NCBI RefSeq assembly: GCF_007362775.1 | Contig: NZ_CP041692.1 | Coordinates: 4,340,001 to 4,404,000 of the forward strand | Direction of reading: 5' to 3' | Origin: Microlunatus elymi | Lineage (GTDB): Bacteria > Actinomycetota > Actinomycetes > Propionibacteriales > Propionibacteriaceae | Length of the DNA: 64,000 nt | Shown here: piece after piece, positions 1 through 64,000 of the stretch | Position numbering within the stretch: position 1 is the first letter of the stretch | Layout: each line of letters opens with the position of its first letter | Position numbers and translations under genes: made by a program | Notes under the pieces: generated by a model | Told to the model about the DNA's origin: nothing | Seen by the model: the letters and a program-made list of their open reading frames with translations, nothing else | The model's database searches: none

Positions 1-73
1 CGCGATCGACATCCACCGAGGTAGTTGATCTTGGTCCGTGGCGGTCGTGATCGTTGATGATCTTGGAGCAGCG

Positions 74-736
74 ATGAGGTTCCGTGACCGCGCCGAGGCG
101 GGTGATCAACTCGCCGATCAGGTCGCCGCGCTGCTGACCGGCGCCGGTCCCGATCGAGAACTGCCCCGCAGGCTTCAGGTGCTCGCGCTGCCGCGTGGCG
201 GCGTACCGGTGGCTCGGCCGATCGCCGATCGACTGGACCGTCCGCTGCGGCTGCTGCTGGTCCGCAAGCTCGGGCTGCCCGGGCATCCGGAGTTGGCGAT
301 GGGTGCGATCGCCGCGCTCGGCGGCCGGATCGAGATCGTGCACAACGATGCCGTGCTGCATCAGCACCGGGTCGATCCCGACGAGTGGGCTGCGGTGCTC
401 GAGGCCGAGACCGCCGAACTGCGCCGCCGGGTCGACGAGTTCGGCGCCTGGACCGGGGCCGATCCCGCCGGCGCCGCGGTCGTCCTGGTCGATGACGGAC
501 TGGCCACCGGCGCCACCATGCGGGCCGCGGTCGCGGTCACCCGCGCCGTCGGAGCTGGACGGATCGTGGTCGCCGTCCCGGTCGCCTCGACCTCCGCGGT
601 GGCGCAGCTGCAGCAACCCGGCGTCTCGGTGCTGGCTCTGTCCCGGCCGGATCCCCTGATCGCCGTCGGCGAGGCGTACCGCGACTTCCATCAACTCGAC
701 GACTCCGAGGTGATCGCCCTGCTGCAACGCCGCTGA
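74..736 (+). CDS. Phosphoribosyltransferase-family protein
   Basis: A 220-residue protein of the type I phosphoribosyltransferase fold. The PRPP-binding loop is clear at residues 136-149 (VVLVDDGLATGATM), with the usual paired acidic residues before a glycine-rich turn. Conserved blocks LALPRGGVPVA (38-48) and VRKLGLPGHPELAMGAIA (63-80) match the actinobacterial subgroup often annotated simply as phosphoribosyltransferase. The ATG at 74 was chosen because GGAG lies five bases upstream and the family usually begins near MRFRDR; a GTG at 38 is an in-frame alternative adding 12 residues. The natural substrate base cannot be told from sequence. It stands alone, converging on the MarR-like gene at 780-1190. 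Confidence 0.85.
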   Translation: MRFRDRAEAGDQLADQVAALLTGAGPDRELPRRLQVLALPRGGVPVARPIADRLDRPLRLLLVRKLGLPGHPELAMGAIAALGGRIEIVHNDAVLHQHRVDPDEWAAVLEAETAELRRRVDEFGAWTGADPAGAAVVLVDDGLATGATMRAAVAVTRAVGAGRIVVAVPVASTSAVAQLQQPGVSVLALSRPDPLIAVGEAYRDFHQLDDSEVIALLQRR

Positions 737-779
737 GGTTTGGGCCCGGCCGATCGACCGGTGCGGCGCGTGGTCGAGT

Positions 780-1190
780 TCATGCAGCCCTGGACAACAC
801 CTCCCGGCCGCGTTCGAGCAGAGTGTTGAGGATGCGTTCGGTCGCCGCGACATCGGCTGCCGGCAGGTCCTCCCATAGACCCCCTGCCAGGGCCGCCGTA
901 CGTTCGCGAACGCCTGCCATCAGCGTCCGCGCGGATTCGGTGAGCGCTCCGTCGGCCAACAGGTCGCGAGCCGTGAGCGTCTCGACCAGGTCGGCGGCGT
1001 TCTCGAAGTGGGCCCGGTCGCGCGCTGCGGCCACCAACGCGTCGGCATCAGCACTTTCGCCCCGCCCAGCCAGTCGCAATGTCACCCACTGCGGTTCGGT
1101 GAGTTCGGTGCCGTCGAGCGCGCGCCGGAGCAGTACCTGCAGCGTCTTCGCTGTCGTCCCGACCAGTTCGGGTCCGAAGGAAATGGACAT
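780..1190 (-). CDS. MarR-like winged-helix protein
   Basis: A 136-residue soluble protein. The stretch TEPQWVTLRLAGRG at about 30-43 and the helical flanks resemble MarR-family dimer and winged-helix segments, but the recognition helix is less typical than in the neighbour at 1266. An excellent ribosome binding site (AGGAGG, five bases before the ATG at 1190) supports the start. It is divergent from a clear MarR regulator, and the shared 75-base gap carries two palindromes, so the two genes are probably co-controlled. It could be a regulator or a helical effector; the DNA-binding role is inference. Confidence 0.7.
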   Translation of the reverse strand: MSISFGPELVGTTAKTLQVLLRRALDGTELTEPQWVTLRLAGRGESADADALVAAARDRAHFENAADLVETLTARDLLADGALTESARTLMAGVRERTAALAGGLWEDLPAADVAATERILNTLLERGREVLSRAA

Positions 1191-1207
1191 GATGTCCTCC
1201 TAAATCG

Positions 1208-1244
1208 TTGGATGGCCCAACAGTAGCGTTATTGGTGCCACCAA
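1208..1244. promoter_or_regulatory. Twin palindromic operators between divergent MarR-type genes
   Basis: Two 13-bp palindromes, TTGGATGGCCCAA (1208-1220) and TTGGTGCCACCAA (1232-1244), share TTGG-N5-CCAA ends. Their centres are 24 bp apart, a little over two helical turns, so two dimers would sit on nearly the same face. They lie between the starts of the genes at 1190 (leftward) and 1266 (rightward). MarR proteins bind such short palindromes; assignment to the product of 1266-1721 is inference. Confidence 0.65.
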
Positions 1245-1252
1245 CAACCCCT

Positions 1253-1258
1253 TTAGAC
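1253..1258 (+). promoter_or_regulatory. Candidate -10 box of a leaderless promoter
   Basis: TAGACT fits TANNNT and ends seven bases before the GTG at 1266. No ribosome binding site lies between, so transcription probably starts at or next to the start codon. Confidence 0.45.
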
Positions 1259-1265
1259 TGATTTC

Positions 1266-1721: not shown

Positions 1722-1722
1722 C

Positions 1723-1757: not shown

Positions 1758-1774
1758 TCAGGTCGGTACAGCCG

Positions 1775-1942: not shown

Positions 1943-2046
1943 TGCATCCTCATCTCTGTCATCAACTGCAGCATCCAGCATGGGGCAGGCCTATTATCCC
2001 GTATCCGGCCCGCCGCGGCCATTCGGGGCGGCAACAGCCTCCGCGC

Positions 2047-4654: not shown

Positions 4655-5509
4655 ATGGCTCGAACTGCCCGTCGACTGGGCGCCGTGGTCGCGGCGCTCG
4701 TCTGCGTGGTGGCACTGCTGGTCGTGTTGGCGGTGATCATCATCAAGTCGATCCCGAATCATCAGCCGCTGCCCGGCGAGCAGCGGTGTGTGGCCACCGC
4801 GGCGGATCAGTCGGTCGCGGTGGACACCGAACAGGCGCACTATGCGGCGTTGATCGCCGGCATCTCGGTTCGCAAGGGGCTGGCTCCGCGGGCCGCGTCG
4901 ATCGCGCTCGCCACCGCGTACCAGGAAAGCAATCTGCGCAATCTTGATCATGGCGATCGGGATTCGGTGGGCCTGTTCCAGCAGCGGCCGTCGATGGGTT
5001 GGGGCACCGAGAAGCAGTTGATGAATCCGTACTACGCCACCACCCGCTTCTACCGCGCGTTGATCAAGATCCACGGCTGGGAGAAGGGCGACATCACCGA
5101 GATCGCCCAGAAGATCCAGATCAGCGGCTATCCGGACGCCTACCGTGATCATGAAGCCGATGCCCGGGTGCTGGCCTCGGTGCTGACCGGTCAGAGTCCG
5201 GCCGGGATCCGTTGCCTGATTCGAGATCAGCGGCCGGGCGACGTGAGCGGATTGATCAAGGACCTGCGCAAGACGTACCAGCTCAAGCCGAAGCATTCCG
5301 GCTCGGTGATCACCATCTCCGCCGGTTCCACCACCCTGGCCTGGTCGTACGCGCAGTTCGCAGTCGCGAACGCTCGGCAGTACGGGGTCGCGCGGGTCGA
5401 GGTCGGATCGCACAGCTACCAGGTCGACAACCGAATCCTGGCGGAGTGGAAGACGACCCAGGACTCGATCGGCGCCAAGTCGGTGAAGATCACCACCCGA
5501 GCATCCTGA
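4655..5509 (+). CDS. Membrane-anchored lysozyme-like protein
   Basis: A 284-residue protein with an N-terminal signal anchor (about residues 8-32, hydrophobic and after RTARR) and an extracellular domain. The stretch ALATAYQESNLRNLDHGDRDSVGLFQQRPSMGWGT (about 84-118) has the glutamate and GLFQQRPS pattern of a goose-lysozyme or Slt-like fold seen in many actinobacterial proteins of unknown role, with PYYATTRFYRALIKIHGW after it. Peptidoglycan cleavage is plausible but unproven; the glutamate in YQESN is the candidate catalytic residue. It starts 17 bases after the dapD stop and may be co-transcribed with it. Confidence 0.75.
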   Translation: MARTARRLGAVVAALVCVVALLVVLAVIIIKSIPNHQPLPGEQRCVATAADQSVAVDTEQAHYAALIAGISVRKGLAPRAASIALATAYQESNLRNLDHGDRDSVGLFQQRPSMGWGTEKQLMNPYYATTRFYRALIKIHGWEKGDITEIAQKIQISGYPDAYRDHEADARVLASVLTGQSPAGIRCLIRDQRPGDVSGLIKDLRKTYQLKPKHSGSVITISAGSTTLAWSYAQFAVANARQYGVARVEVGSHSYQVDNRILAEWKTTQDSIGAKSVKITTRAS

Positions 5510-15480: not shown

Positions 15481-16497
15481 ATGGACCAGACACCGCCCCG
15501 CGCGATCGGAGCCGACGCGCTGTCCGCAATGGTGCCACCGCTGGGGATCGACGACCGGGTGACCATTCGCTACCGCCTCACCGACGGTTCGGCGACCGAC
15601 GTGGTGGGCTGGGTGGTCGGGCTCGACGACGACCAGGTACGAGTACAGCCGCCCGCCCCGGACGGTCGTCCACAGCCGGCGCTGGTGGATCGCGATCGGA
15701 TCATCCTGGCCAAGCGCGTGCCACCGGTCCCCGGCGGTCGTCCGGTGAGCAGGACGACGGCCGAGGAACTGGAACGGATCGCGATGCAGGGCTGGATCGA
15801 CGAGTCCGCACCCCTGCTGCCCGGGCATCACGGATGGACGCTGCGCTTCGGCAACGGCTTCACCGGACGGGCCAATTCCTGTTTGGCAGTAGGCGATCCG
15901 GGACTTCCCTATCCCGAGGCGTCGAAGTTGATCATCGAGCAGTACCAGGCCGCGGGGCTGCCGCCGTGGGTGCAGGTGATCACCGACTCGGTGCCGGACC
16001 GCCGACTTGTTGATCTTGGTTGGCAGCCGACCTACGTGCCGACCACGGTGATGACGGGCACGCTCGGCGCGGTGGTCGGTGATCATCGGCGCACCGACCG
16101 AGTGCAGGTCGCCGAGCAGCTCACCGAGGACTGGTGGCAGGGCTATCTGCAGTACCGGCCGATTCCCGATCATGAAACCGCGCGCCGGATCTTGATCAAC
16201 AATCCACCGGTCGGACTGGCATCGGTGCACCACGACGGCCGGCTGGTCGCGCTGGGACGTGGCCAGATCACCGCCGACTGGCTCGGCATCGCCGGCCTGT
16301 GGACCGATCCGGCGTTCCGTCGTCAAGGCCTGGCGACCATGATCATCCGCGAGCTCGCGCACTGGGCAGCCCGGCGCGGCGCCCGCTACGGCTATCTGCA
16401 GGTGGCCCAGGAGAACGCCGGCGCCATTGCTGCCTACTCGCGGCTCGGCTTCGTACGCCATCACGATTACCGCTACCTCGCACCGGCGCCGGTCTAA
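15481..16497 (+). CDS. GNAT-family N-acetyltransferase (CG3035/Rv0428c-like)
   Basis: A 338-residue two-part protein. The N-terminal 80 residues form a small beta-rich domain (VTIRYRLTDGSATDVVGWVV), followed by a GNAT catalytic domain whose acetyl-CoA loop is clear near residues 277-287 (FRRQGLATMII), then YLQVAQENAGAIAAYSRLGF. The architecture matches the actinobacterial family named after CG3035 and Rv0428c (from memory), sometimes annotated as N-acetylglutamate synthase on weak grounds. The substrate is unknown. It is divergent from fdxA and precedes the toxin-antitoxin genes. Confidence 0.85.
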   Translation: MDQTPPRAIGADALSAMVPPLGIDDRVTIRYRLTDGSATDVVGWVVGLDDDQVRVQPPAPDGRPQPALVDRDRIILAKRVPPVPGGRPVSRTTAEELERIAMQGWIDESAPLLPGHHGWTLRFGNGFTGRANSCLAVGDPGLPYPEASKLIIEQYQAAGLPPWVQVITDSVPDRRLVDLGWQPTYVPTTVMTGTLGAVVGDHRRTDRVQVAEQLTEDWWQGYLQYRPIPDHETARRILINNPPVGLASVHHDGRLVALGRGQITADWLGIAGLWTDPAFRRQGLATMIIRELAHWAARRGARYGYLQVAQENAGAIAAYSRLGFVRHHDYRYLAPAPV

Positions 16498-17194: not shown

Positions 17195-18937
17195 TCAGAC
17201 GCAAGTGCGGCGATCGGTGGGGTGGTAGGTCCAGGCGAAGTCTTCCTTCTTCACCTGGTTGCCGTCGCGGTAGAACAGCCGCGAATAGCTGACGTCGAAT
17301 CCCTGCACCGGCGCGGTCGCGACACAAGTCGCGCTGTCGTCGGTGAGGTCGCGGCCGGTGGTGAAGTTCGACTTCACCGGTTCGGTCGATTCGATCTTGT
17401 CGTAGGTCTTGGTCGACCACATCCGCACGGTCAGGGAACCCTGACCGCCCGGCTCGGCCTTCTTCAGTTTGGCCTGCACCAACACGCCGTAGTCGGTGTT
17501 GTTGCGGAACTTCAGGTCCAGCGTCGGCCAGGCGACTGTGGCCTCCCGGCCCGCCGGGTAGCGGTCGATGTAGAGCGTGTGCGGCTGGTGCTGAATGTCC
17601 TCGAGGCCGGCGAAGAACATCGCGTTGTAGGTGGTGGTCGCGCTCTGCGAGACGCCGCCGCCCAACTCCTGCTTGAATCGGCCGCCGGTGATGATGCTGC
17701 CCTCGGTGAAGCCGTTCGCCCGGGTTCGTTCGCCGACCACCTTGTTCAGACTGAAGGTCTCCCCCGGCTTCAGCAAGGTGCCGTTGATCAACTCGGCGGC
17801 CCGGCCGATGTTGACGTTGCGGTATTCGGCGTACGGGTAGTGGGTGGTGAATTCGCCGGTCACTTCCTCGACGCCGAGCTTGTGCGCGTCGGCCGTGTTG
17901 AACTCCGGCTCGACCTCGGTGGTCTGGACCGCTGCCGTCCGCTCGCTGCCAGTCTTGGTCATGGCCGCGTCGACGGCCGTGGCCAGCTCGTCGGCCGAGA
18001 TCCCGGTGCCCGGCTTGCCCTCGACCACGGTCGGCTTGCCGTTCTTGATCTTGATCGTGGCGTCAGTCGCCTTCTTGGTGTCGAACGTCGCCAGTGCCGA
18101 TTTCGCTTTCTGGTGAAGCGTTCTGGCGTTGAGCGTTGCGGTTGGTCTGCCGTGGGTCTGGTCGATCTCGATCGCTTTGGCGATCATCGCCGGCGTGATC
18201 TCGGCCTGGCTGCTGTCGGCGGTCACCGTGACTGGGCCGGACAACGCCGGCTGCACCCGGTCCTTGATCAACTTCGCCACCTCGTCGTCGGTGATCTGCG
18301 GCTGCGATGTCCGGACCGGCAGCGCCACCGGCTCTTCGGCGAGCAGACCGTCCGGGATCGCCCGTGCCGCCGCGGCACGGTCCAACGACAGTCCGGTGAT
18401 CATCTTCGTACTGTTGATCTTCGGCTGATCGGAGTCGTTGATCTTGATCTTCGCGTCCTTCGGCTTGCGATCATGGTCGTCGGCCAGCCCGTCGACCGCA
18501 GCCTTCAGCTTCGCGTTGTCGGTCGCGATCACCGGATCGACCTCGTGCCCACCGGTCAGCCCGGCCCAGATCCGGCGCGGATCGAGGCTCCGGCCGATGC
18601 CGACCCGGTCGACGGTCGCCTGGTAGTCGACGCCGACACCTGCATCGGCCGGATCGACCTCGGCACTGCGGTTGTCGATCGTGACCGCGATCGGTTCCGT
18701 GGCCCTCGGTCCGAGCGCCTGCTGCAGCTGCTCGACCGCGTCGGTCCGGCTCATGCCGCCGATCGGGATCCCTGCCACCGAAGCATTCCGCGCGGTCTTG
18801 TCGCCGGTCATCAGGTAGCCGATCAGATAGAGCCCGAAGGCGAGCACCACCACCGCGCCGGCACCGAGTCCGACGACCTTGGCCCTGCTCCGCGCCGGTG
18901 GCGCGGACTTCTCCCCCGTCATGTCGCTGTCCCCCAA
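17195..18937 (-). CDS. VanW-family cell-surface protein
   Basis: A 580-residue protein with an N-terminal transmembrane anchor (about residues 21-43), two or more peptidoglycan-binding-4-like modules (about 50-340, with repeated ITPAMIAKAIEI and SADELATAVDAAM type segments), and a C-terminal VanW domain (about 360-500, with FTTHYPYAEYRNVNIGRAAE and GGGVSQSATTTYNAMFFAGL). VanW proteins are common in actinobacteria, sit outside the membrane and have no settled function; an L,D-transpeptidase-related cell-wall role is often suggested. It lies seven bases after mshB on the same strand. Confidence 0.9.
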   Translation of the reverse strand: MGDSDMTGEKSAPPARSRAKVVGLGAGAVVVLAFGLYLIGYLMTGDKTARNASVAGIPIGGMSRTDAVEQLQQALGPRATEPIAVTIDNRSAEVDPADAGVGVDYQATVDRVGIGRSLDPRRIWAGLTGGHEVDPVIATDNAKLKAAVDGLADDHDRKPKDAKIKINDSDQPKINSTKMITGLSLDRAAAARAIPDGLLAEEPVALPVRTSQPQITDDEVAKLIKDRVQPALSGPVTVTADSSQAEITPAMIAKAIEIDQTHGRPTATLNARTLHQKAKSALATFDTKKATDATIKIKNGKPTVVEGKPGTGISADELATAVDAAMTKTGSERTAAVQTTEVEPEFNTADAHKLGVEEVTGEFTTHYPYAEYRNVNIGRAAELINGTLLKPGETFSLNKVVGERTRANGFTEGSIITGGRFKQELGGGVSQSATTTYNAMFFAGLEDIQHQPHTLYIDRYPAGREATVAWPTLDLKFRNNTDYGVLVQAKLKKAEPGGQGSLTVRMWSTKTYDKIESTEPVKSNFTTGRDLTDDSATCVATAPVQGFDVSYSRLFYRDGNQVKKEDFAWTYHPTDRRTCV

Positions 18938-19865: not shown

Positions 19866-20711
19866 CTACGAAATGCCGCCGACAGTCAACGAACGCTCGT
19901 CCGGGTCGCAAATCGCATCGGTCAGCCAGCCGAGATAACGCTCGGCCGATTCGGCCACCACCCGCTTGGCGTCGGACTCGATGCAGGTGCCGAACGCGCC
20001 GTAGATCCGGTCGTAGTCGTACGGCTCCACGGCGGCGACGATCTGCCGCACCAGCCGCACCGACAGCGGCAGGTAGTTGGGGAACGATCGCATGAAGCTG
20101 GCGGTCCGGTTCGGCGTGACGGCGATGGTGTCGCCGCTGAACAGCACCCCGCGACCGTCCGCGCCGTCGGCCCAGTGCGCCACCGAGCTGCCGGGAAAGT
20201 GTCCGCCGGCCTGCACCAAGGTGATGCCGGGAAGGATCTCGAGCCGATCCCGCCAGAGCCCGATCCGGTCGTCGGGATGGCTGATCCAGCGCCGATCGTC
20301 GGCGTTGAAGTAGAGCGGTACGTCGAACTCGCGGGCCCAGACCGCGGCCGCCCCGACCAGGTGCGGATGGCTGGCCGACACCGCCGCCACGCCACCGTTC
20401 TCGGCGGCAGCGGTGAGCATGGCGTCGGTGACGACCCCGTTCGGCTCCCAGACCAATTGACCGGTCGGGGTCTTGATCAACATCGTCTTCTGCCCGATCC
20501 CGAACGTGGGCCTGACTTCCAGCCGAGTCAGCCCCGGCTCGACCTCGACGAACCCGAATTCGTGATCACCGGCGATCTCGGAGCATTTGGTCCATTGCTG
20601 GCCGTCCTGGGGCACCCACTGCCGGTCGTCGGCACAGATCGGGCACACCCCGGGCAGGTCCTGATCGATCGGAAATGCGTTGCCGCAGGTGCGACAGAGG
20701 TAGATGTCCAT
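19866..20711 (-). CDS. Metallo-beta-lactamase-fold protein with N-terminal zinc ribbon
   Basis: A 281-residue protein. The first 30 residues form a rubredoxin-like zinc ribbon (cysteines 6, 9, 23, 26). The rest is an MBL-fold domain, but the canonical HxHxDH motif is changed to SHPHLVGA, keeping two histidines and losing the D-H pair; the later GGHFPGSSV and LFSGDTI blocks are kept. Metal binding is thus probably altered. Similar proteins are annotated as MBL-fold hydrolases of unknown substrate. The ATG at 20711 places the zinc ribbon at the N-terminus. Confidence 0.85.
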   Translation of the reverse strand: MDIYLCRTCGNAFPIDQDLPGVCPICADDRQWVPQDGQQWTKCSEIAGDHEFGFVEVEPGLTRLEVRPTFGIGQKTMLIKTPTGQLVWEPNGVVTDAMLTAAAENGGVAAVSASHPHLVGAAAVWAREFDVPLYFNADDRRWISHPDDRIGLWRDRLEILPGITLVQAGGHFPGSSVAHWADGADGRGVLFSGDTIAVTPNRTASFMRSFPNYLPLSVRLVRQIVAAVEPYDYDRIYGAFGTCIESDAKRVVAESAERYLGWLTDAICDPDERSLTVGGIS

Positions 20712-20874
20712 GACCCCAGCCAAGCCCCTCAACCCGGGTCGAGGTCAAGGTGTACGAGTCAAGCCTGAACTTGGGGCGCCGCTGAGCGCCCGCTGTCAGC
20801 CGACCCGCTGGCTTCGGCCGGAGATCTATCGTGATCCAGCCGTTGCTCGCGGCTAGTTCAGGAAGAGGTGTTCG

Positions 20875-32541: not shown

Positions 32542-32747
32542 GATGAAGACACCTTTCTGTTCGGGTGGAGAACTCCTGCGGCGATCCGCAAGGAGCCGAC
32601 AAAAGAGGCAAGGTGGCGAGCGGGTCCAATCGCTCTCTGCTTCCAGCCTGGCGGCTGTGCACATGACAAGGTCGACCCGGGCCGCCCCGGTGATACCCGG
32701 TCAGACTCGCCGTTACCTGCGACTCGACCTGGCCTCCGTCACCCGGA

Positions 32748-32858: not shown

Positions 32859-33089
32859 ATGGCCGACCAGACCGGCGCCCGAGTGAACCTCCTCCATCTA
32901 CGAGCAGAGGTGGAGACCGAAATCGAATTGACCGAGTCGGTCGCGGATCCCAACAACATCGAAGATCCCGACACCGAGGCGTACGACATCAGGCTGCGCA
33001 GCCTCCGTGACGCCGTCGAGGTAGCTGCATTGTACGAGCACGGGTCCGATCAGCCGGCGTGGCTCTCCCCGGAAAAACGAGATCGCTGA
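32859..33089 (+). CDS. Small acidic hypothetical protein
   Basis: A 76-residue, acidic, mostly helical protein (MADQTGARVNLLHLRAEVET, later NNIEDPDTEAYDIRL). AAGGAG stands seven bases before the ATG, and an ECF-like promoter lies about 50 bases upstream, both in favour of a real gene. No family was recognised. Its last 40 bases overlap, tail to tail, the end of the large LuxR-type gene on the other strand. Confidence 0.6.
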   Translation: MADQTGARVNLLHLRAEVETEIELTESVADPNNIEDPDTEAYDIRLRSLRDAVEVAALYEHGSDQPAWLSPEKRDR

Positions 33090-36798: not shown

Positions 36799-39561
36799 TC
36801 AGTTGGTGCTTCTGGCCGGTAGCTTGTCGGCCAGTCGCTTGCGGGAGCGCACCCCGAGCTTGTTGTACACCTTCCTGAGGTGCCATTCGACCGTGTGCGG
36901 ACTGAGGAACAGTTGGGCGCCGATCTCGGGATTGGTCAGCCCGTCGCTGGCGAGCCGGGCAATCTGAGCTTCCTGCCCCGTCAGAGTTGCGGCCGCGTCG
37001 AGACTTTGCGCTTGCACGGTGACGCCGACTGCTCGCAGTGTCCGCCGGGCGCGTTGAGCGAAGCCAACGGCGCCCATCGTCGTGAACAGCTCATGGGCGG
37101 TCGTCAACTCCGTGCGAGCCTCGGCTCGCCGACCGCCGCGATGTAACCATTCGCCGTACAGCAACCGGCTGCGGGCCAGTTCAGCCACCATCCGGGTCGT
37201 GCCGAGCCGGCCGATCGATTCACGAAATGCGTTGTCGGCCGCGCTGTCTCCTGCCAGGAGCGCCCGCCCCCTGGCCTCGACGCCCAGAGCCCAGTCCGTC
37301 CCGCTGACCGTGGCGAATTCGGCCAGTCTCTCCAGTACCTCGAAAGCTAGGTCGCGGTGCCCGGCTCCGGCTGCCGCTTCGATCATCTCGCTCATCGCCC
37401 ACTTCGGGACCGCCAGCTCGTCGGGGTACGAAGCGGCGTCGGTCGCCGCACTCAGCGCCGCTTCGTAGTTGCCGAGTCCGAGCTCGAGCAACGCTTCGGC
37501 CCAGTAGGACATTGCCACGCCTACGCCTTCACCACGCGCGCGCACGTCGGCCAAGTTGGTCTCGATCAAAGTGCGCGCACTTCCCGCGTCCCCGCGCCAG
37601 GCGGCGAGCGCCATCGCCGCGTATGCGGCAACATGCGTGCCGGTGCTCGCGGTGACGTTCGGGATCTCGGCCACCAGCGATGCCGCCGCGTCCCCCTCAC
37701 CGGCAAACAGGTGGACCACGGCCCGCGAGTTCAGCGCCAGCGGAAGCTCGGTCAGAGAACCGGTCTCGCGGGCGATCCGTACGTGCTCGGTCGCCAGGCG
37801 CTGCCAACTCTCGCCGTCCCAGACGTCGGCCGCCGTAGCAGCGGCCAGCCACAGGTAGCGCAGCTGCCCGGCGGTGAGTTCGCCGTCGCAGATGGCCTGC
37901 AGCATGGCCCGGACGGAGTCGATCGATGCCCGATAGCCGTCGCTGAACCGCGCGGTCAGAGCCCGCAGAAGTTGATCACCAAGGCTGTCTCGCGATCGGG
38001 AGACCGTGCCGGACCGGGCGTCGCGCGCAACCTGGGCGACGTTCGGCGAGCCCGCCAACCGGCCGGCGAACATCGCAGCCGAGATCGCTTCCAGAAAGGT
38101 GTCCATGGCCAGACGGGGATCGATCGGTTCGAGCCGACGCGCGGCTTGCAGCAAGAGCGGCACCGCGTCGCGTCCCCGGTCCGCGACGAACCGGCTCTGG
38201 GCCCTGACCAACGCCGCTTTGGCTCGATCGGAATCCGACAGTGGACTGGTTTCGGCGATGGCGAGCAGGCTCAGGGTTTCGTCGACCGCACCGGCCCGCA
38301 GCTTGGCCCCAGCCGCAGCCAGCGCTCGTTCGCCTCTCCTACGTGGCTCGGGCGTCAGCTGCACGGCACGCTCCAGCAGGGCCGCCTCGGCCGCCACGCC
38401 GCCACGCTGTCTGGCCCGGTCGGCCGAGGATTGCAGTTCGGCCGCTACCTCCTCGTCGGCGGTTCGGGCGGCCAGTGCTCGATGCCAGGCCCGACGGTCT
38501 GGGTCGAGGTCGGCGTCGATCGCTTCGGCGAGCGCCTGGTGCGCACGTTGTCGATCTTGTGCGGTGGCGGCGGCGTGAACAGTCGCCCGCAGCAGCGGGT
38601 GCCGGAACCTGACCCGATTGCCGATACTGATCAACCCTGCCGACTCGGCGGGCAAGGCAGCGTCGGCATCGATCCCGAGGAGGTCGACCGCGCGCCACAG
38701 CAGTGCCGCGTCGCCGGTCGGCTCGACCGCAGCGATCTGCAGTAGTTGTCTCGTCGGCTCCGGCAGCGCGGCGATGCGACGCGCGTAGCTGTCCTGCAGT
38801 TGTTCGGTGATCGGCCGGGGGCTGGGGATCGCGAAGCCACCGGTCAGACGTGGATCGAGCCGGCTCGGCAGTTCGATCAGAGCCAGCGGGTTGCCACCGG
38901 TCTCGGCGATGATCCGGCTGCGAACGTGGGCGTCGATTCGACCCGGGATGATCGAATCGAGCAGAGCCCCCGCGTCAAACGTGTCCAACCCCTGCAGTCT
39001 CAACTCGGGGAGGCCGCGGAAGTCGGAGTCATCCTCCTCACGGGTGGCGAACACCAGCACAATCGGCTCGGCGAGCAACCGCCGCGCGACGAATGCGAGC
39101 ACCTGGACCGAGGATCGATCCCACCATTGAACGTCGTCGATCAGACAGATCAGCGGTCGCTCGCCCGCGACTTCTGCGAGCAGGCTGAGGGTCGCCAGGC
39201 CGACCAGGAATCGGTCCGGCGGCGGTCCCAGCTTGATCCCGAAGGACGTCTCCAACGCGTCTCGCTGCGGGGGAGGCAACTCGGCGATCGGGCCCAGGAA
39301 CGGGCCGCACAACTGGTGCAAACCGGCGTACGGCAGCTCCATCTCCGCCTGGACGCCGGCTGCCCTCGCCAGGTGGCATTCCGCGGCCCGATCGGCCAGG
39401 AACTCCAGCAGTGCGGTCTTGCCGATGCCGGCCGCACCCCGCACCACCAAGACCTCGCTCTGCCCGGCTCGGGCCTTCTCGACCAACCGAGCCAAGGCCT
39501 CGCGCTCCCTGCGCCTTCCGCGCAGGGAGTGCCCGGGGTCGGTGTCGTTGGTTGGTGACAT
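36799..39561 (-). CDS. LAL-type LuxR-family regulator with ATPase domain (second copy)
   Basis: A 920-residue paralogue of the gene at 33050-35860. Walker A is GAAGIGKT (42-49), Walker B ICLIDDVQWWD (about 139-149), and the LuxR helix-turn-helix is at about 860-912 (LTGQEAQIARLASDGLTNPE, then SPHTVEWHLRKVYNKLGVRS). The near-identical recognition helices of the two LAL proteins suggest overlapping target sites. The ATG at 39561 is divergent from an alpha/beta hydrolase gene, a likely target. The ligand is unknown. Confidence 0.92.
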   Translation of the reverse strand: MSPTNDTDPGHSLRGRRREREALARLVEKARAGQSEVLVVRGAAGIGKTALLEFLADRAAECHLARAAGVQAEMELPYAGLHQLCGPFLGPIAELPPPQRDALETSFGIKLGPPPDRFLVGLATLSLLAEVAGERPLICLIDDVQWWDRSSVQVLAFVARRLLAEPIVLVFATREEDDSDFRGLPELRLQGLDTFDAGALLDSIIPGRIDAHVRSRIIAETGGNPLALIELPSRLDPRLTGGFAIPSPRPITEQLQDSYARRIAALPEPTRQLLQIAAVEPTGDAALLWRAVDLLGIDADAALPAESAGLISIGNRVRFRHPLLRATVHAAATAQDRQRAHQALAEAIDADLDPDRRAWHRALAARTADEEVAAELQSSADRARQRGGVAAEAALLERAVQLTPEPRRRGERALAAAGAKLRAGAVDETLSLLAIAETSPLSDSDRAKAALVRAQSRFVADRGRDAVPLLLQAARRLEPIDPRLAMDTFLEAISAAMFAGRLAGSPNVAQVARDARSGTVSRSRDSLGDQLLRALTARFSDGYRASIDSVRAMLQAICDGELTAGQLRYLWLAAATAADVWDGESWQRLATEHVRIARETGSLTELPLALNSRAVVHLFAGEGDAAASLVAEIPNVTASTGTHVAAYAAMALAAWRGDAGSARTLIETNLADVRARGEGVGVAMSYWAEALLELGLGNYEAALSAATDAASYPDELAVPKWAMSEMIEAAAGAGHRDLAFEVLERLAEFATVSGTDWALGVEARGRALLAGDSAADNAFRESIGRLGTTRMVAELARSRLLYGEWLHRGGRRAEARTELTTAHELFTTMGAVGFAQRARRTLRAVGVTVQAQSLDAAATLTGQEAQIARLASDGLTNPEIGAQLFLSPHTVEWHLRKVYNKLGVRSRKRLADKLPARSTN

Positions 39562-42976: not shown

Positions 42977-43043
42977 ACCTGAGCACGCTCGCACCGTTCG
43001 AACACGCTCGCCACGGATACGGCGGCCATGATTGACTCCAGAC

Positions 43044-44315
43044 ATGACAGACGTCGCGTCCCCGACCCACACTCCCCCTCACCGCAGCGAACTGACCCTC
43101 AGCCCGCTGACCGAACAGGACTTCGAGAACTACTTCACCGTCGTGGCGCGCGGCTTCCACAGTGAGTTGCACGCCGACGACCTGGAGATCCAGCGGGCGA
43201 TGACCGACGTCGATCGCTGCTTCGGATTCTGCTCCGGTGATCGTTGGGTCAGCACCACCCTGTCCTTCGCCCAAAGGATGGCCGTTCCCGGCGGCTCGGT
43301 GCCGACCGCCGCGGTGACCGACGTGACCGTGACGCCCGGCCATCGCCGACGCGGGCTGCTGACGCAGATGATGCGGCACCAGCTGACCGGGCTGCGCGAA
43401 CGGGGCGAGGAGCCTGTCGCCTTGCTGTGGGCCAGTGAGTCGTCGATCTACGGCCGGTTCGGCTACGGCCAGGTCACCCGCCGGTTCAATCTGTCCGGAC
43501 AGACCCGGGAGTTGGGATTCCTGCGCGAAGTTGATCTTGGCGACGGGTCCGCGGACGAGGTCACCGCCGATGCCTACTTGGCCGCAGCGGCGCCGTTGCG
43601 GGAAACGATCTTCACCGATCGGCCCGGTCATCTGCATCGCAGTGATGCCTGGTGGCGCCGCAATCAGCACGATCCGGAACGCAACCGGCACGGCGCCGGC
43701 CCGCTGCGCTTCGTCCTGCACTTCGCCGCCGACGGTACGCCGGACGGATTCGCCAATTTCCGAATCAAGGAAGACAGTTCGATCACCGATCTCGGCGGCG
43801 AGGTCATCATCGGTGATCTTGATGCTGCCGATCCCCAGGCCTATGCAGCGCTCTGGCGCTGGCTGCTGGATCTGGATCTGATTCGAGCGTTCCGGCGGCA
43901 TGTCGCACCGACCGACGAGCCGCTGCTGCAGTTGGCCGCCAACCCGCGGATGATCAAGACCGAGTTGGGCGACGCCACCTACGCCCGGATCGTCGACGTG
44001 CCGACGGCCTTGCAGGCCAGGACGTACGCGCAGGAAGTTGATCTTGTGCTGGAGATCGAGGACTCCTTCCTGCCCGAGGCCGGCGGCCGCTTCCGGCTGG
44101 CTGGTGGACCCGACGGTGCAGACGTCAGCAGGACCGATCACACACCGGACCTGAGCCTGACCGCGCGCCAGCTCGCGATGATCTATCTGGGCGGTACCCC
44201 GGTTCGCGATCTTGCTGTAGCCGGCCAGGTCGTCGAACACACGGCCGGTGCGGTGCAGCGAGTCTCGGCGGCCTTTGCCGGACCGCGAGCGCCGTTCTGC
44301 CGGGACTTCTTCTAG
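43044..44315 (+). CDS. Eis-like GNAT acetyltransferase
   Basis: A 423-residue member of the Eis family. The acetyl-CoA loop is TVTPGHRRRGLLTQMMRHQL (about 98-117), followed by ESSIYGRFGYGQVTRRFNL, the family's hallmark, a second GNAT-like domain and an SCP2-like C-terminus. The C-terminal residue is phenylalanine, as usual, whose carboxylate acts in catalysis in Eis. The ATG at 43044 is preferred to a TTG four codons upstream. The acylase gene starts two bases after its stop, so the two are translationally linked. Confidence 0.9.
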   Translation: MTDVASPTHTPPHRSELTLSPLTEQDFENYFTVVARGFHSELHADDLEIQRAMTDVDRCFGFCSGDRWVSTTLSFAQRMAVPGGSVPTAAVTDVTVTPGHRRRGLLTQMMRHQLTGLRERGEEPVALLWASESSIYGRFGYGQVTRRFNLSGQTRELGFLREVDLGDGSADEVTADAYLAAAAPLRETIFTDRPGHLHRSDAWWRRNQHDPERNRHGAGPLRFVLHFAADGTPDGFANFRIKEDSSITDLGGEVIIGDLDAADPQAYAALWRWLLDLDLIRAFRRHVAPTDEPLLQLAANPRMIKTELGDATYARIVDVPTALQARTYAQEVDLVLEIEDSFLPEAGGRFRLAGGPDGADVSRTDHTPDLSLTARQLAMIYLGGTPVRDLAVAGQVVEHTAGAVQRVSAAFAGPRAPFCRDFF

Positions 44316-44317: not shown

Positions 44318-46375
44318 ATGGTCGCCGAGGTTTTCCGGGACCCGTGGGGCATCCCGCACTTGCGGGCCGACAGCGTCGACGAGCTGGCCCGGTTGCAGGG
44401 CCGGATCGCCGCCACCGACCGGGCCTGGCAGTTGGAGTGGAACCGGCGCCGGGCCGAGGGGCGTACCGCAGAGGTGGTCGGCAGCGCGGGCGTCACCTTC
44501 GACCGATTCGCCCGCCGAGCACGGATCGACGAGACCGCGCGCCGCGGCTTCGATCGACTGGACCCCCGGACCCGGAACTGGTGTACCGCCTACGTCGACG
44601 GCGTCAACGACGGGCTCGATGCCGGCGCCGCCGGAGCGTACGAGTTCGTCAGCCTGGAGATCGGGCCCGGCCGTTGGCAGCCGTGGACGCCGTTGGCCGT
44701 TTTCGCCGTCCAGCAACTGCTTTTCGGCGGTTTTCCGTACAAGCTGTGGCGCCGGCACATCGACCAGCGGCTCGGCCAGGGGGCGATCGGGCTGCTGGAG
44801 TCGGCGATCGAGGACAGTCCGGGCAGCAACGCCTGGGCGGTGACCGGCGATCGCGCTCGCGGTGGACTGCCGATGATCGCCGGCGATTCCCATCGCACGA
44901 TGGACTTTCCGGGGGTGTATCAGCAGGTCCGGTTGGCCTGTCCGGAGTTCGACGTGATCGGGTTCAGCTTCCCCGGTGTCCCGGGCATCCAGCATTTCGG
45001 CCATGCCGGCGAGGTGGCATGGGCGATCACCAACGCGATGGCCGACTACCAGGATCTCTTCCTGGAGGAGCTGCGCGCCGACGGTGATCAACTCAGCGCC
45101 CGAGGTCCGGACGGCTGGCGCCCGGTCCGCCACAGCGAGGAGTTGATCATGGTTCGCGGCGGCGAACCGGTACCGGTGAAGATCAACATCACCGAGCGCG
45201 GCCCGGTGATCATCGACGAGCCGGACGGCCCGACGATCAGCCTGCGGACGCCGTCCCAGGTTGAGGCAGATCTCGGTTTCGGCGCCCTGCTGCCGCTCCT
45301 GCGTGCACGCACCGTCGACGACGTCACGGCCGCGTTGTCGCACTGGGTCGAGCCGGTGAACAGTGCGTTGATCGCCGACCGCGCCGGCGCAGTACGCCAT
45401 CTGATCGCCGGCCGGGTGCCGATCCGGGACGATCGCAATCTGGATGTCCCGGTGCCGGCCTGGGACCCTCGCCACGCCTGGACCGGCGACTACGCCCAGG
45501 TGCCGTACGACGAGGTCACCGACCTGACCGCCAACGGCAACGACCGCGCCAGCGGCGGCGGACTGGGTCGCTACTACGCCTCCGACTGGCGGGCCACCCG
45601 AATCCGCCGACGGCTCGGCGCGTTGCCGCCGCGGTCGGCCGACGCCGAGGCGATGTCGATCATCCACCGCGACGTCCGGAGCGGTCCGGGCGGGCGCGCG
45701 GTGGAACTGATCCGCGCTGCCGAGGTCGACGGACCGGCGAAGTTGATCAAGGACGAGCTGGTGGACTGGGACGCCGAGATGACGGCGGACAGCCGGCCGG
45801 CCCTGCTGTACGCGGCCTGGCGGGAGGCCATGATCGACTGGCTGCTGGAACAACCCGCACTGGCCCGCCTGCACGATCCGGATCCGCTGCCCGCGCTCTA
45901 CGACGCGGTGATGAACGTCCCGTACCGGATCGGATCGTCCTTCGACACCATCTGTGCCAACGCCGATCGTCTCGGGCTGGACCTGAACGCCGGTGTGGTC
46001 AGCGCCTTGGAGGCGGTTGCGGCTGACCCGCCGCACGGGACGTGGGGCGACGTACACCGGCTGTCCGCGGTTCATGCGCTGACCGATCTGGCCGATGATC
46101 ACGTACCGCCGATGCCGCAAACGAGGTTGGCCGGCGACACCGGCTGCGTGTTCTGCACGCACTCCTCCCCCGGCATCAGTCACGAGTGCTCGTTCGCCTC
46201 GGTCACCCGCTATGCCTGGGATCTGAGCGATCGATCGGCCAGCCGGTGGGTGGTGCCGTTCGGCTCGTCCGGTCGCCCGGACAGCCCGCATCACCTTGAT
46301 CAACACGGCTCCTGGGCGCGCGGCGAGCTGCTGCCGGTGATCACTGACTGGGCACAGTTGATCAAGGAAGAGTGA
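44318..46375 (+). CDS. Penicillin-acylase-family Ntn hydrolase
   Basis: A 685-residue protein of the penicillin G acylase / quorum-quenching acylase family. The N-terminal RDPWGIPHLRADSVDELARL is typical, and the nucleophile serine, the first residue of the beta chain after self-cleavage, is Ser170 in DSPGSNAWAV. The FGHAGEVAWAITNAMADYQD block is also conserved. Unlike most relatives it lacks a signal peptide, so it is probably cytoplasmic. Substrates could be acyl amides of unknown kind. Only two bases separate it from the Eis-like acetyltransferase, suggesting acylation and deacylation of related compounds; that link is inference. Confidence 0.9.
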   Translation: MVAEVFRDPWGIPHLRADSVDELARLQGRIAATDRAWQLEWNRRRAEGRTAEVVGSAGVTFDRFARRARIDETARRGFDRLDPRTRNWCTAYVDGVNDGLDAGAAGAYEFVSLEIGPGRWQPWTPLAVFAVQQLLFGGFPYKLWRRHIDQRLGQGAIGLLESAIEDSPGSNAWAVTGDRARGGLPMIAGDSHRTMDFPGVYQQVRLACPEFDVIGFSFPGVPGIQHFGHAGEVAWAITNAMADYQDLFLEELRADGDQLSARGPDGWRPVRHSEELIMVRGGEPVPVKINITERGPVIIDEPDGPTISLRTPSQVEADLGFGALLPLLRARTVDDVTAALSHWVEPVNSALIADRAGAVRHLIAGRVPIRDDRNLDVPVPAWDPRHAWTGDYAQVPYDEVTDLTANGNDRASGGGLGRYYASDWRATRIRRRLGALPPRSADAEAMSIIHRDVRSGPGGRAVELIRAAEVDGPAKLIKDELVDWDAEMTADSRPALLYAAWREAMIDWLLEQPALARLHDPDPLPALYDAVMNVPYRIGSSFDTICANADRLGLDLNAGVVSALEAVAADPPHGTWGDVHRLSAVHALTDLADDHVPPMPQTRLAGDTGCVFCTHSSPGISHECSFASVTRYAWDLSDRSASRWVVPFGSSGRPDSPHHLDQHGSWARGELLPVITDWAQLIKEE

Positions 46376-47122: not shown

Positions 47123-47274
47123 GACTGTTGCTCCCCGGATTCGACGACGGTCCGCTCACGCTACTCGGTGTCCTTGCCTCTCACTCACACCCGTGGCAGC
47201 CGACTGCGACATTGCGATCACCGGGTCACCGTCACCCCCTAGAGTTGGCGCGTGATCAACTCAGGAGCACTTCG

Positions 47275-48366
47275 ATGAGCAACACGCTTCCGATCGGTAC
47301 GGCGGCCGGCAACCCCGATCAGCAGGTGGCCCTGCGCGCCGACAAGTTCAATCGGCACACGTTCTGGTGCGGCCAGAGCGGCTCGGGCAAGTCGTACGCG
47401 CTCGGCGTCGTGCTGGAGCAACTGCTGCTGAACACCGATCTGCCGTTGCTGATCATGGACCCGAACTCCGACTACGTCCGGCTGGCCGAGACGCTGCCGC
47501 ATGCCTCGGCGGCCGAGTCGGAGCGCCTGGCAGCTGCCGACGTACGCGTGCTGAACTCCGGCACCCGCGGCGGCGAGCGACTGCAGACCCGGTTCCTCGA
47601 TCTTGACGTGGCCACCAAGGCGGCCACCTTGCGGCTGGACCCGATCACAGATCTGGACGAGTACAACGTCCTCCTGCACATCGACGAGCGGCGCCCGGAA
47701 TCCTGGGATCGGGACAGCTACCTGGAGATGATCCATCACTCCGACGATCCCGGGGAGCGAGCGATCGGCAGGCGGGTGGAGAACCTGCAGGTGTTGGAAT
47801 GGGAGCTCTGGGCCTGGGGCGGGCGTTCGGTCACCGACGTCGTGGACGAGCGTCCGTCAGCGACCGTACTTGATCTTGGTGGCTTCACCCATCGGGGCGA
47901 GTCCGCAGTGGCCGCATTGAGTGTGCTGGAGCATCTGTGGCGGCAACGCGAGGAGCGGCGGCCGGTGCTGATCGTGATCGACGAGGCGCACAACCTCTGC
48001 CCGCCCAATCCGCAGACACTGGTCGAGCGGGCGTTGGTGGACCAGATCGTCCAGATCGCTGCCGAGGGACGAAAGTTCGGGCTGTGGCTGCTGCTGTCGA
48101 CGCAGCGGCCGACCAAGATCCATCCGAACGTCCTGTCCCAGTGCGACAACCTCGGGCTGATGCGGATGAGTTCGCCGCGTGATCTCGGCGAGCTGGCCGA
48201 CGTCTTCGGCTATGCCCCGTCGCATCTGATCCAGGAGTCGCCGCACTTCACCCAGGGTCAGGCCCTGTTCGCCGGCGGATTCGTCTCCGAGCCGACGATC
48301 GCCAGGATGGGCCGCCGGCTGACGGTCGAGGGCGGTTCCGACGTCGGCGTTCCCATCCGCGCCTGA
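47275..48366 (+). CDS. HerA/DUF87-like ATP-binding protein
   Basis: A 363-residue P-loop ATPase. Walker A is GQSGSGKS (33-40), Walker B VLIVIDEAHNLCP (near 236-248), and an STQRPTKIHPNVLSQCDN block near 275 resembles sensor and arginine-finger regions of HerA/FtsK-type hexameric ATPases. No NurA, Sir2 or nuclease gene lies next to it. A ribosome binding site (AGGAG) supports the ATG at 47275. It may be a DNA translocase or a stand-alone defence ATPase; neither is shown. Confidence 0.82.
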   Translation: MSNTLPIGTAAGNPDQQVALRADKFNRHTFWCGQSGSGKSYALGVVLEQLLLNTDLPLLIMDPNSDYVRLAETLPHASAAESERLAAADVRVLNSGTRGGERLQTRFLDLDVATKAATLRLDPITDLDEYNVLLHIDERRPESWDRDSYLEMIHHSDDPGERAIGRRVENLQVLEWELWAWGGRSVTDVVDERPSATVLDLGGFTHRGESAVAALSVLEHLWRQREERRPVLIVIDEAHNLCPPNPQTLVERALVDQIVQIAAEGRKFGLWLLLSTQRPTKIHPNVLSQCDNLGLMRMSSPRDLGELADVFGYAPSHLIQESPHFTQGQALFAGGFVSEPTIARMGRRLTVEGGSDVGVPIRA

Positions 48367-50387: not shown

Positions 50388-50457
50388 ACAGCCGCGCGCA
50401 AACCTCACTCCCGCATGCCGAATATCGGGTGCGCGAGCAGGTTTTGCGCGCGGCTGT
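50388..50457. repeat. Long inverted repeat in the 331-base gap after the symporter gene
   Basis: The arms (50388-50405 and 50439-50457) pair over 18 bases with one bulged T, with an inner CCCG/CGGG pair at 50410-50413 and 50426-50429. It could be a terminator for the symporter or a small non-autonomous element. The rest of 50311-50641 has no gene; a TAGAGT box near 50575 may be the -10 of the next gene. Confidence 0.55.
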
Positions 50458-62170: not shown

Positions 62171-62188
62171 ACTGTCGGCGGTGACCGT

Positions 62189-62194
62189 TAGGGT
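62189..62194 (+). promoter_or_regulatory. Candidate -10 box for xseA
   Basis: TAGGGT ends six bases before the xseA ATG at 62201; no ribosome binding site is visible. Confidence 0.4.
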
Positions 62195-62200
62195 CTGCGC

Positions 62201-63439
62201 ATGGCCCTGGAGTCTTCGCCCGATCAGCCGCAACCGCTGCGGGTGGTCGCGCAGGCGGTGAAGGGTTGGATCGAGCGCCTCGGCTGGGTCTGGGTGGAGG
62301 GGCAGCTGATCGAGATCAACCGCCGTTCCGGCTCTCGCACGGTGTTTCTCACCCTGCGCGACAAGCTGGCCGAGGTCAGCGCCAGCGTGTCGATCTCACC
62401 GGCCAACCTGGATCTGGCCGGGCCGCTGCGGGAAGGATCGACGGTCGCGGTCCGGATCCGGCCCAGTTACTACACGCCCAGTGGCCGCTTTTCCTTCTAC
62501 TGCGACGAAATCCGGCCGGTCGGCGAGGGACGGCTGCTGGCCCAGCTGGAGCAGACCAAGCGCCTGTTGCAGGCCGAAGGCCTGTTCGATCGGGTCCGCA
62601 AGCAGCCGCTGCCGTTCCTGCCTCGATCGGTCGGCCTGATCACCGGCGCCAACAGCGCCGCCGAACGTGACGTGGTGGAGAATGCTCGCCGCCGCTGGCC
62701 GGCGGTCAGGATCGAGACCCGCAACACTCTCGTACAAGGACCGCAGGCGGCCGAGGAGATCATCCGGGCGCTGCGCCAGCTGGACAACATCGCGGCGGTG
62801 GAGGTGATCGTGATCGCCCGCGGCGGCGGTTCGCTGGAGGACCTGCTGCCGTTCTCCGACGAGGGCCTGATCCGGGCGGTCGCCGGCTGCCGGACTCCGG
62901 TGGTGTCGGCGATCGGCCACGAGACCGATCAGCCGATCCTGGATCTGGTCGCCGACGTGCGGGCCTCCACACCGACCGATGCCGCACGTCGGGTGGTGCC
63001 CGACGTGACCGAGGAGTTGTCGCGCGTCGACCAGGCCCGGCAGCGGGCGTACGGGGCAATGATCAAGATCATCGACCGGCAGCAGGAGTTTCTCAGCACC
63101 TTGCGCAGCCGGCCGGTCCTGGCCGAGCCGACGGCCAGCTTCGATCTGCGCTACGAGCAACTCGATACGCTCCGGCAGCGGGGGCAGCGCGCGATCCGGC
63201 ACCTGCTGGCCAGCGAATCGAACACCATCACCCACACCCTGGCGAGAGTCCGGGCGATGTCGCCGAAGGCGACCCTGGACCGGGGCTATTCGATCTTGGT
63301 CGACGATCAGGACCGGACCGTCACCTCGATCACCGCGGTCGCCGACGGCGCATCGATGACGGCGCACCTGGCCGACGGCCGACTGCTGGCCACCGTGACC
63401 GGCCGCCGGCCAGATCAACACCATCAGCTCGACGAGTGA
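62201..63439 (+). CDS. xseA: Exodeoxyribonuclease VII large subunit
   Basis: A 412-residue nuclease subunit. The N-terminal OB-fold is at about 12-110 (VVAQAVKGWIERLGWVWVEG), and the catalytic domain has LPRSVGLITGANSAAERDVV, VIVIARGGGSLEDLLPFSDE and AIGHETDQPILDLVADVRAS. The C-terminal coiled coil binds several XseB subunits. It degrades single-stranded DNA from both ends. Length is normal for actinobacteria. It starts a two-gene operon with xseB. Confidence 0.96.
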   Translation: MALESSPDQPQPLRVVAQAVKGWIERLGWVWVEGQLIEINRRSGSRTVFLTLRDKLAEVSASVSISPANLDLAGPLREGSTVAVRIRPSYYTPSGRFSFYCDEIRPVGEGRLLAQLEQTKRLLQAEGLFDRVRKQPLPFLPRSVGLITGANSAAERDVVENARRRWPAVRIETRNTLVQGPQAAEEIIRALRQLDNIAAVEVIVIARGGGSLEDLLPFSDEGLIRAVAGCRTPVVSAIGHETDQPILDLVADVRASTPTDAARRVVPDVTEELSRVDQARQRAYGAMIKIIDRQQEFLSTLRSRPVLAEPTASFDLRYEQLDTLRQRGQRAIRHLLASESNTITHTLARVRAMSPKATLDRGYSILVDDQDRTVTSITAVADGASMTAHLADGRLLATVTGRRPDQHHQLDE

Positions 63440-63454
63440 GGACGACCATCGACC

Positions 63455-63691
63455 ATGACCGATGAAGCAGCCGGCACCGAGGACCTCTCCCAGCTCAGCT
63501 ACGAGCAGGCTCGGGAGGAATTGGTCGCCGTTGTCCAGCGACTCGAGTCCGGTGGCGCACCGCTGGCCGAATCACTCGCCTTGTGGGAGCGCGGCGAACG
63601 GCTGGCCGAGATCTGCCAGCAATGGCTGGACGGTGCCAAGGCCAAGGTTGAGGCAGCCCGGGCCTCGGCCACCGACGAAACCCCGTCCTGA
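63455..63691 (+). CDS. xseB: Exodeoxyribonuclease VII small subunit
   Basis: A 78-residue helical-hairpin protein; LSYEQAREELVAVVQRLESG and GAPLAESLALWERGERLAEI are the family blocks. It wraps the coiled coil of XseA. It begins 15 bases after the xseA stop. Confidence 0.96.
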   Translation: MTDEAAGTEDLSQLSYEQAREELVAVVQRLESGGAPLAESLALWERGERLAEICQQWLDGAKAKVEAARASATDETPS

Positions 63692-63698
63692 CTCCGGC

Positions 63699-64000
63699 TC
63701 AAGCCGTGTGGACCTGGCCGAAGCGACGCCGGTACTCGACCGGCGCCAATCCGACGTGACGGCGGAAGTGATCACGCAGCACCACGCTGGAGTTGAAGCC
63801 GACCCGATCGGCGATCTGCTCCACGCTCAGATCGCTCTCCTCCAACAGTCGACGCGCCTCCAGGACCCGCTGTTGGTTGATCCACTTGTGCGGCGTGGCC
63901 CCGGTCTCCGCCACGAAGCGGCGCGCGAACGTGCGCTCGCTCAGATTCAGCCTCCGGGCGAGCGAGGCCGCCGAATGCGGCTCGGCCAGGTTGTCAGAGA
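63699..64000 (-). CDS. AraC-family regulator, C-terminal part (GlxA type)
   Basis: Only the last 99 or so codons are in the window; the start lies beyond 64000. The two AraC helix-turn-helix units are visible: AASLARRLNLSERTFARRFV and SVEQIADRVGFNSSVVLRDH, ending in VGLAPVEYRRRF. This C-terminal form is typical of GlxA-type regulators that carry an N-terminal DJ-1/PfpI domain, which cannot be seen here. Confidence 0.85.
   Translation of the reverse strand, partial: SDNLAEPHSAASLARRLNLSERTFARRFVAETGATPHKWINQQRVLEARRLLEESDLSVEQIADRVGFNSSVVLRDHFRRHVGLAPVEYRRRFGQVHTA

Follow-up and report, generated by a model that had tools for sequence, protein, structure and literature searches.

The window analysed here is a stretch of 64,000 nucleotides, bases 4,340,001-4,404,000 of the single-contig genome of Microlunatus elymi (5,121,194 bases; G000 in our numbering), and it carries a short palindromic word in great excess. 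TTGATC occurs 67 times and its reverse complement GATCAA 57 times, i.e. at 124 sites where base composition predicts 10.6. A preliminary description made from the letters of the window had estimated about 115 such sites against about 11 expected, at an assumed GC content near 67% (67.0% measured), and about a dozen copies of the octamer TTGATCAA where far fewer than one would be expected; the octamer is present 12 times (Table 1), against 0.15 in a model of order 0 and 1.85 in one of order 3. For the hexamer pair the expectation rises to 52.7 (order 2), 82.6 (order 3) and 113.2 (order 4), the order-4 model already holding TTGAT and TGATC. The third-order Markov model, put forward as a possible refutation, hence does not predict the counts, least of all that of the octamer. 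Window totals are 112 for TGATCA and 924 for GATC, both-strand counts of palindromes being halved to give sites, and the hexamer most deviant from order 3 is TGATCA itself (224 on both strands, 116 expected). TTGATC is a fragment of a favoured word centred on TGATCA, in its degenerate form DTGATCAH (D is A, G or T; H is A, C or T).

The 12 octamers of the window fall into two frames, 9 and 2, with 1 outside called genes; in the genome sample the three frames hold 66, 22 and 0. The sites had been said to occur in every reading frame; inside genes this is true only of the two frames in which the octamer creates no stop codon, the third being empty. Of four examples offered for rare codons, GTT GAT CTT lies exactly at 16009 and 43530, and the other two begin one base further on, at 44037 and 47869, and have the codons stated. 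At 16009..16017 GTT has a share of 5.7%, CTT of 3.7% and GAT of 29% within their amino acids.

Table 1. Copies of the octamer and examples of its asymmetric form in the window, with the genes that contain them
Motif	Position	Strand	Reading or form	Context
TTGATCAA	5060..5067		read TTG ATC AA	called gene 4655-5509 (+)
TTGATCAA	5252..5259		read TTG ATC AA	called gene 4655-5509 (+)
TTGATCAA	16192..16199		read TTG ATC AA	GNAT acetyltransferase gene 15481-16497 (+)
TTGATCAA	17784..17791			VanW-domain gene 17195-18937 (-)
TTGATCAA	18264..18271			VanW-domain gene 17195-18937 (-)
TTGATCAA	20473..20480			called gene 19866-20732 (-)
TTGATCAA	32186..32193			called gene 31795-32664 (-)
TTGATCAA	35585..35592		frame xTT GAT CAA	LuxR-type regulator gene 33050-35860 (-)
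TTGATCAA	45743..45750			penicillin-amidase-family gene 44318-46375 (+)
TTGATCAA	46296..46303		frame xTT GAT CAA	penicillin-amidase-family gene 44318-46375 (+)
TTGATCAA	46358..46365			penicillin-amidase-family gene 44318-46375 (+)
TTGATCAA	55980..55987			outside called genes
GTT GAT CTT	16009..16017	+	example of asymmetric form GTTGATCTT	
GTT GAT CTT	43530..43538	+		GNAT/SCP2 gene 43032-44315 (+)

The excess is a property of the whole chromosome. The genome contains 785 copies of TTGATCAA, a palindrome far above Markov expectation throughout, and 41 and 33 copies of the palindromes of the same composition TTCATGAA and AAGTACTT; these are imperfect controls that can be read as preferred codons, so that the argument is carried by the codon null described below and not by the ratio of counts. 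In a 464-kb genome sample, order 3 predicts 15 copies of TTGATCAA (73 found) and 423 of TGATCA (792 found), and relative to composition TGATCA is present 20 times and TTGATCAA 67 times as often as expected. Over 21 samples, TTGATCAA varies between 0 and 8 copies per 20-kb sample, beside the 12 of the 64-kb window, and TGATCA between 1.05 and 2.75 per kb. DTGATCAH occurs about once per 780 bp, with positions even along genes. Longer favoured forms such as GAAGTTGATCA are among the top words of the 464-kb sample, and GAAGTTGATCAAG is found in local clusters.

In the codon null, synonymous codons were shuffled only between sites that agree in amino acid and in neighbouring bases, which preserves the protein, the codon usage and the junction dinucleotides. 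The gene calls come from a simple script and not from a curated annotation, and the main run comprises 881 kb of sampled sequence, in which a codon-position GC filter against antisense calls kept 419 of 500 genes. TTGATCAA occurs 49 times in 253 genes (9.2 expected) and 88 times in the 419 filtered genes (17.7 expected). In the same 419 genes, the frame xTT GAT CAA, which relies on less-used codons, is present 22 times versus 0.4, and xxT GAT CTT 121 times versus 1.8. Miscalled antisense genes as a source of the xTT GAT CAA frame are ruled out by the position-GC filter. The shuffles bear out the earlier statement that codon bias does not explain the sites, and they rule out codon usage, codon junctions and composition as the cause. 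The reading that the word merely follows from the base composition or codon usage normal for a GC-rich actinobacterium could appeal to the order-4 model, which nearly predicts the window hexamers (113.2 versus 124), and to plain GATC, whose ratio to the codon null is 1.06-1.29 across the 20 genomes that have called genes, regardless of enrichment. It is nevertheless hardly credible, having been refuted by the frame test already and failing against the codon null, the intergenic sequences and the non-enriched relatives; eight non-enriched genomes, put through the identical pipeline, yield 72 DTGATCAH versus 66.6 (236 of 252 genes). The abundance of plain GATC, by comparison, is largely explained by codons (7297 versus 5861, a ratio of 1.25, with 1.13 in non-enriched relatives). 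D[QH] amino acid pairs reach 1.31 and 1.34 in enriched genomes versus 0.96, and E[QH] pairs, for which the word cannot account, are likewise raised (1.37 and 1.25 versus 1.13), so whether the word has shifted protein composition is unclear.

The unit is an 8 bp dyad, DTGATCAH (T/A/G-TGATCA-A/T/C), of which one half may also be GATCTT. With the outer T of TTGATCAA replaced by A or G, the excess over the codon null stays (3.9 and 2.9 times), whereas with C it is gone (0.89). Substitutions within GATC bring the counts, several of them small, near expectation (e.g. TTGGTCAA, 6 versus 8.3) and show that the central GATC is needed for the excess. Among half-sites, defined by the bases read outward from GATC, the pairs AH/AH (391 versus 150) and AH/TT (243 versus 105) are in excess. 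The pairs AH/AG (106 versus 110), AH/CN (158 versus 171) and likewise AH/T[ACG] are at expectation, and AH/GN, with a ratio of 1.38, is near the general GATC ratio. Since AH is in excess only with a fitting partner half, both halves are required and the word is a dyad, as would be expected if a dimer recognised it.

Intergenic sequences of six enriched genomes (33.9 kb) contain 58 TGATCA and 28 DTGATCAH, each about 15 times the expectation from composition, and on both strands 116 TGATCA versus 39.4 (order 2) and 60.8 (order 3). The word is hence present beyond codons in coding and non-coding DNA, more weakly between genes than within them. No TGATCA occurs in 6.4 kb of intergenic sequence from five non-enriched congeners, a small sample in which composition predicts 0.4. 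In the intergenic parts of named loci, DTGATCAH is not clearly raised in the Streptomyces group (1 versus 0.4) or the Nocardioides group (0 versus 0.2).

One 10-kb block, L243 10000-20000 (G000:C1:2700001-2710000), does not possess any TGATCA, the block mean being 16.8 per 10 kb. It has a GC content of 60.7%, contains glycosyltransferase and acyltransferase genes, and is probably a set of acquired glycan genes. A second, nearly word-free block was considered as foreign DNA and rejected, as it is an rRNA operon (16S, 23S, 5S) following a tyrosyl-tRNA synthetase gene (L009 12481-17650). A word missing from a likely acquired island, and otherwise genome-wide, coding as well as non-coding and variable between species, would suit a transformation machinery that prefers word-bearing DNA and so spreads the word. 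DNA uptake sequences of Neisseriaceae and Pasteurellaceae are short words with many genome copies, linked to species identity. Those known are non-palindromic, come from Gram-negative bacteria and are tied to a known uptake process, whereas the word described here is palindromic, and uptake is an improbable explanation.

Copies of TTGATCAA range from 0 to 984 per genome among 116 genomes, those of TTCATGAA from 7 to 83. More than 191 copies of TTGATCAA are found in 10 of the 116, all from the same family and including M. elymi, and in none of 393 other genomes of a separate draw from the class, for which the counts were given without GC values. The octamer has 0 sites in G024 and G047 (same family) and in G076 and G102 (same order), genomes of 3.8-4.5 Mb with 22-28 copies of TTCATGAA each. 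The ratio of DTGATCAH to the codon null is 2.2-2.6 in G000, G011, G006, G012, G008, G004 and G002, 1.45-1.87 in G023, G046 and G016, 1.30 in G019, and 0.84-1.27 in G003, G009, G010, G014, G017, G018, G022 and G024. G001 (1.19 on 17 kb) is too small to be placed and was omitted from the state count; G005, G007, G013 and G021 (a masked locus of 1.5 kb) are absent from these ratios, and the G015 locus gave no called genes. Among 80 named loci (L121-L200), none of those long enough stands at the counts of enriched genomes. Named loci mostly hold fewer than 5 sites and several give small-count ratios above 2 (e.g. Kitasatospora, 3 versus 0.8); with so few sites per locus, single loci decide nothing. 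Mapped onto an rpoB/rpoC tree of 20 genomes, the states imply a minimum of 4 changes, or of 2 when the three middle genomes are omitted. The clade of G000 and the pair G004/G008 lie apart on this tree and have the excess at nearly equal strength, and this argues for one process that was kept or lost. The data show a preference at the DNA level, symmetric about the dyad, which is steady in the enriched lineages and absent in others.

Orthologues of the window genes were taken from five enriched relatives and compared only at positions with unchanged amino acids. An orthologue in at least one block is available for 30 of 45 called window genes, and 5 of these were set aside because third-position changes made up too small a share. 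In the remaining 25 genes, 39 of 44 site-relative pairs retain DTGATCAH, versus 19.5 predicted from codon-wise retention, and the word is gained 6 times versus 2.3; with all 30 genes it is kept in 52 of 59 pairs (22.7 predicted) and gained 7 times (2.4 predicted). The controls CTGATC/GATCAG (46 of 77 kept, 45.0 predicted) and GTAC (104 of 238, 106.0 predicted) are at expectation. The comparison shows that a force is still acting, without telling of what kind it is. Raised gains and raised retention would also follow from a context-dependent mutation or gene conversion that creates and protects the word without any function, and a word that is spread over the chromosome, lies evenly along genes and affects coding and non-coding DNA alike is consistent with such a bias of mutation or repair. 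This is the strongest rival, albeit an unlikely one. Neighbours that could feed the word are not depleted (CTGATCAA, 33 versus 37, and TTGATCGA, 30 versus 23, in the 464-kb sample); CTGATCAG is present 6 times versus 10.0 in 253 genes but 14 times versus 13.5 in the larger 881-kb sample. Two bases on each side of GATC must fit, which would be an unusually long and symmetric context for mutation.

In behaviour the word corresponds to an iterated palindrome of the type of HIP1, the highly iterated palindrome (HIP) of cyanobacteria, as the preliminary description had suggested: it is genome-wide, coding and intergenic, and varies between close relatives. According to Elhai 2015, HIP1 (GCGATCGC) and the alternate HIPs are likewise short palindromes with a GATC core and massive over-representation, which differ between related species and whose deviations are biased to the outer positions (PMC4390886). 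The word of M. elymi differs from HIP1 in that T/A, rather than C/G, flank GATC, in that its outer positions are degenerate, excluding C, or G at the opposite end, in the lack of a consistent methylase among the families searched, and in its phylum. HIP1 proper is not the word in question, as GCGATCGC (74 versus 52.8 by the codon null) remains far below TTGATCAA (49 versus 9.2). TGATCA has been described from the marine Synechococcus/Prochlorococcus group C1 as a 'weak oligomer' with modest over-representation (PMC4390886); the hexamer core is common to both, the over-representation modest there and 20-fold (TGATCA) and 67-fold (TTGATCAA) over composition here. Among the papers listed in the literature searches, which did not extend to most subscription papers, there is no report of such a word besides Elhai 2015. 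HIP-type words as such are already known; new are a TGATCA word that is both strong and degenerate in a clade of actinobacteria, its presence without the usual methylases in the genome, and sister species that lack it.

Five methylase families were searched. PF02086, PF00145, PF01555 and PF05869 have no match in M. elymi, while PF02384, which we take to be the family of Type I HsdM subunits, has three. An orphan GATC methylase of the DmtA class, as known with HIP1, is thus not found in M. elymi as far as PF02086 represents it; DmtA presumably belongs to this family, an assignment supported solely by a match in the Synechococcus elongatus control. The same is true of a C5 methylase specific for CGATCG or another word, assuming that such enzymes belong to PF00145. 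Recognition words of restriction-modification systems are not enriched and usually avoided, and both methylase and nuclease are present; here the word is enriched and PF02086, PF00145 and PF01555 are missing, in a search that did not extend to nucleases. Among the ten genomes with the excess, carriers number 3 for PF02086, 4 for PF00145, 2 for PF01555, 0 for PF05869 and 5 for PF02384, and among the nine without it 2, 4, 4, 0 and 4, respectively, so that none of the five families tracks the trait. This tally counts as 'without' G046 for PF02384 and G022 for PF02086 and PF05869, which were not searched for these families, and the PF02086 matches of G006 and G019 are below the family cut-off. G004, G002 and G016 (97, 98 and 100% complete; G016 being one of the middle-level genomes) possess the excess and lack all five families.

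These results do not favour upkeep by a GATC methylase, the last of the earlier suggestions, within the families covered; other enzyme classes were not part of the search. Its wider form, in which an orphan methylase of another class, or phosphorothioation, would mark GATC or TGATCA and directed repair would ratchet the word up, is doubtful. It is consistent with a palindrome with GATC core, with the three PF02384 matches of M. elymi, and with a search that left out PF07669, PF05063 and the dnd genes; four families without a match in M. elymi, the tally of carriers in genomes with and without the excess, and three enriched genomes lacking all five families argue against it. The density of DTGATCAH is near the 1 per 1000 of Elhai's HIP1 model (PMC4390886). 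The same paper reports that high HIP1 generally accompanies GATC and CGATCG methylases, names HIP1-rich genomes without a CGATCG methylase as exceptions, and proposes the repair ratchet (Elhai 2015, PMC4390886).

The explanation that we prefer, with a probability of roughly two in five, is a HIP-type iterated palindrome kept through recognition of its dyad, the most likely reader being a sequence-specific DNA-binding protein that acts as a dimer. A component of the cell would recognise the DTGATCAH dyad and would make sites worth keeping and gaining at about one per 780 bp, the cells gaining from the sites. Such a protein may act chromosome-wide, in the nucleoid or in chromosome upkeep, and lineages that lost it would drift back to the level determined by codons. 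The further proposal of a methylation-independent recognition grid in Propionibacteriaceae, in which a dimeric DNA-binding protein would read several thousand DTGATCAH per chromosome, overriding codon usage, and which part of the sister species would have retained and the rest lost, is tentative.

Several observations weigh against dyad recognition by a protein. Neither a binding protein nor a gene that tracks the trait was found. Sites cluster 1.5-2.1 times at 20-100 bp, contrary to what a simple, evenly spaced grid would give. At the coding rate and equal composition, the intergenic sequences should contain 81.6 TGATCA and 66.5 DTGATCAH instead of 58 and 28, and 3.2 kb of intergenic sequence from G008 lack DTGATCAH. 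Intergenic TGATCA of named loci exceeds composition in the Streptomyces group (6 versus 1.0) and the Nocardioides group (4 versus 0.5) as well, and pooled Streptomyces-group loci have a mild coding excess of DTGATCAH (28 versus 16, few sites). TGATCA density shows no relation to GC content over 87 10-kb blocks (rho 0.06, p 0.55), so that the argument from the word-free island comes down to one case. In the orthologue comparison some controls are above expectation, namely TTGGAC (13 of 13 kept, 6.4 predicted), GTCGAC (41 gains, 19.5 predicted) and ATCATC (54 of 58 kept, 42.4 predicted; 15 gains, 5.4 predicted), and the site-relative pairs are not mutually independent. Any force favouring the word, biased mutation included, would raise retention and gain, and purifying selection is therefore not proved.

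HIP1 poses the question of why some genomes accumulate a palindrome, and the model of Elhai 2015 (PMC4390886) ties the accumulation to methylases. The word of M. elymi is a strong case in another phylum: the genome lacks the usual methylase families, and its near relatives include species that have the trait and species that do not. If recognition of the dyad by a protein is the true explanation, the gene of the recognition system could be found by comparing sister species.

Besides the word, the window contains two large, adjacent and co-directional AAA_16-LuxR regulator genes (33050-35860 and 36799-39561) and a HerA/FtsK-like ATPase gene (47128-48366; PF01935, PF05872), the latter with no orthologue above the thresholds applied to the syntenic blocks of five relatives. 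The genome also has a dispersed repeat, about 40 bp long, which begins with ACAGCCGCGCGC and often ends near CCGATATT; its 12-mer head occurs in 24 copies in 881 kb. Copies are located in the window at 50388 (+) and 50446 (-), and furthermore at L001 1424, 1716 and 8827, L006 7711, 7762 and 7813, and L008 16727-16866. The repeats are sometimes tandemly arranged at 51-bp steps or in inverted pairs, and look like a family of the repetitive extragenic palindromic type. CTAG falls about fivefold short of its dinucleotide expectation (188 counted on both strands, 464-kb sample), and TGTACA occurs 30 times versus 83 by the codon null in the 881-kb sample. In the 464-kb sample the codon null gives 102 for CCATGG (54 found), 152 for CGTACG (268 found) and 44 for GAATTC (73 found).

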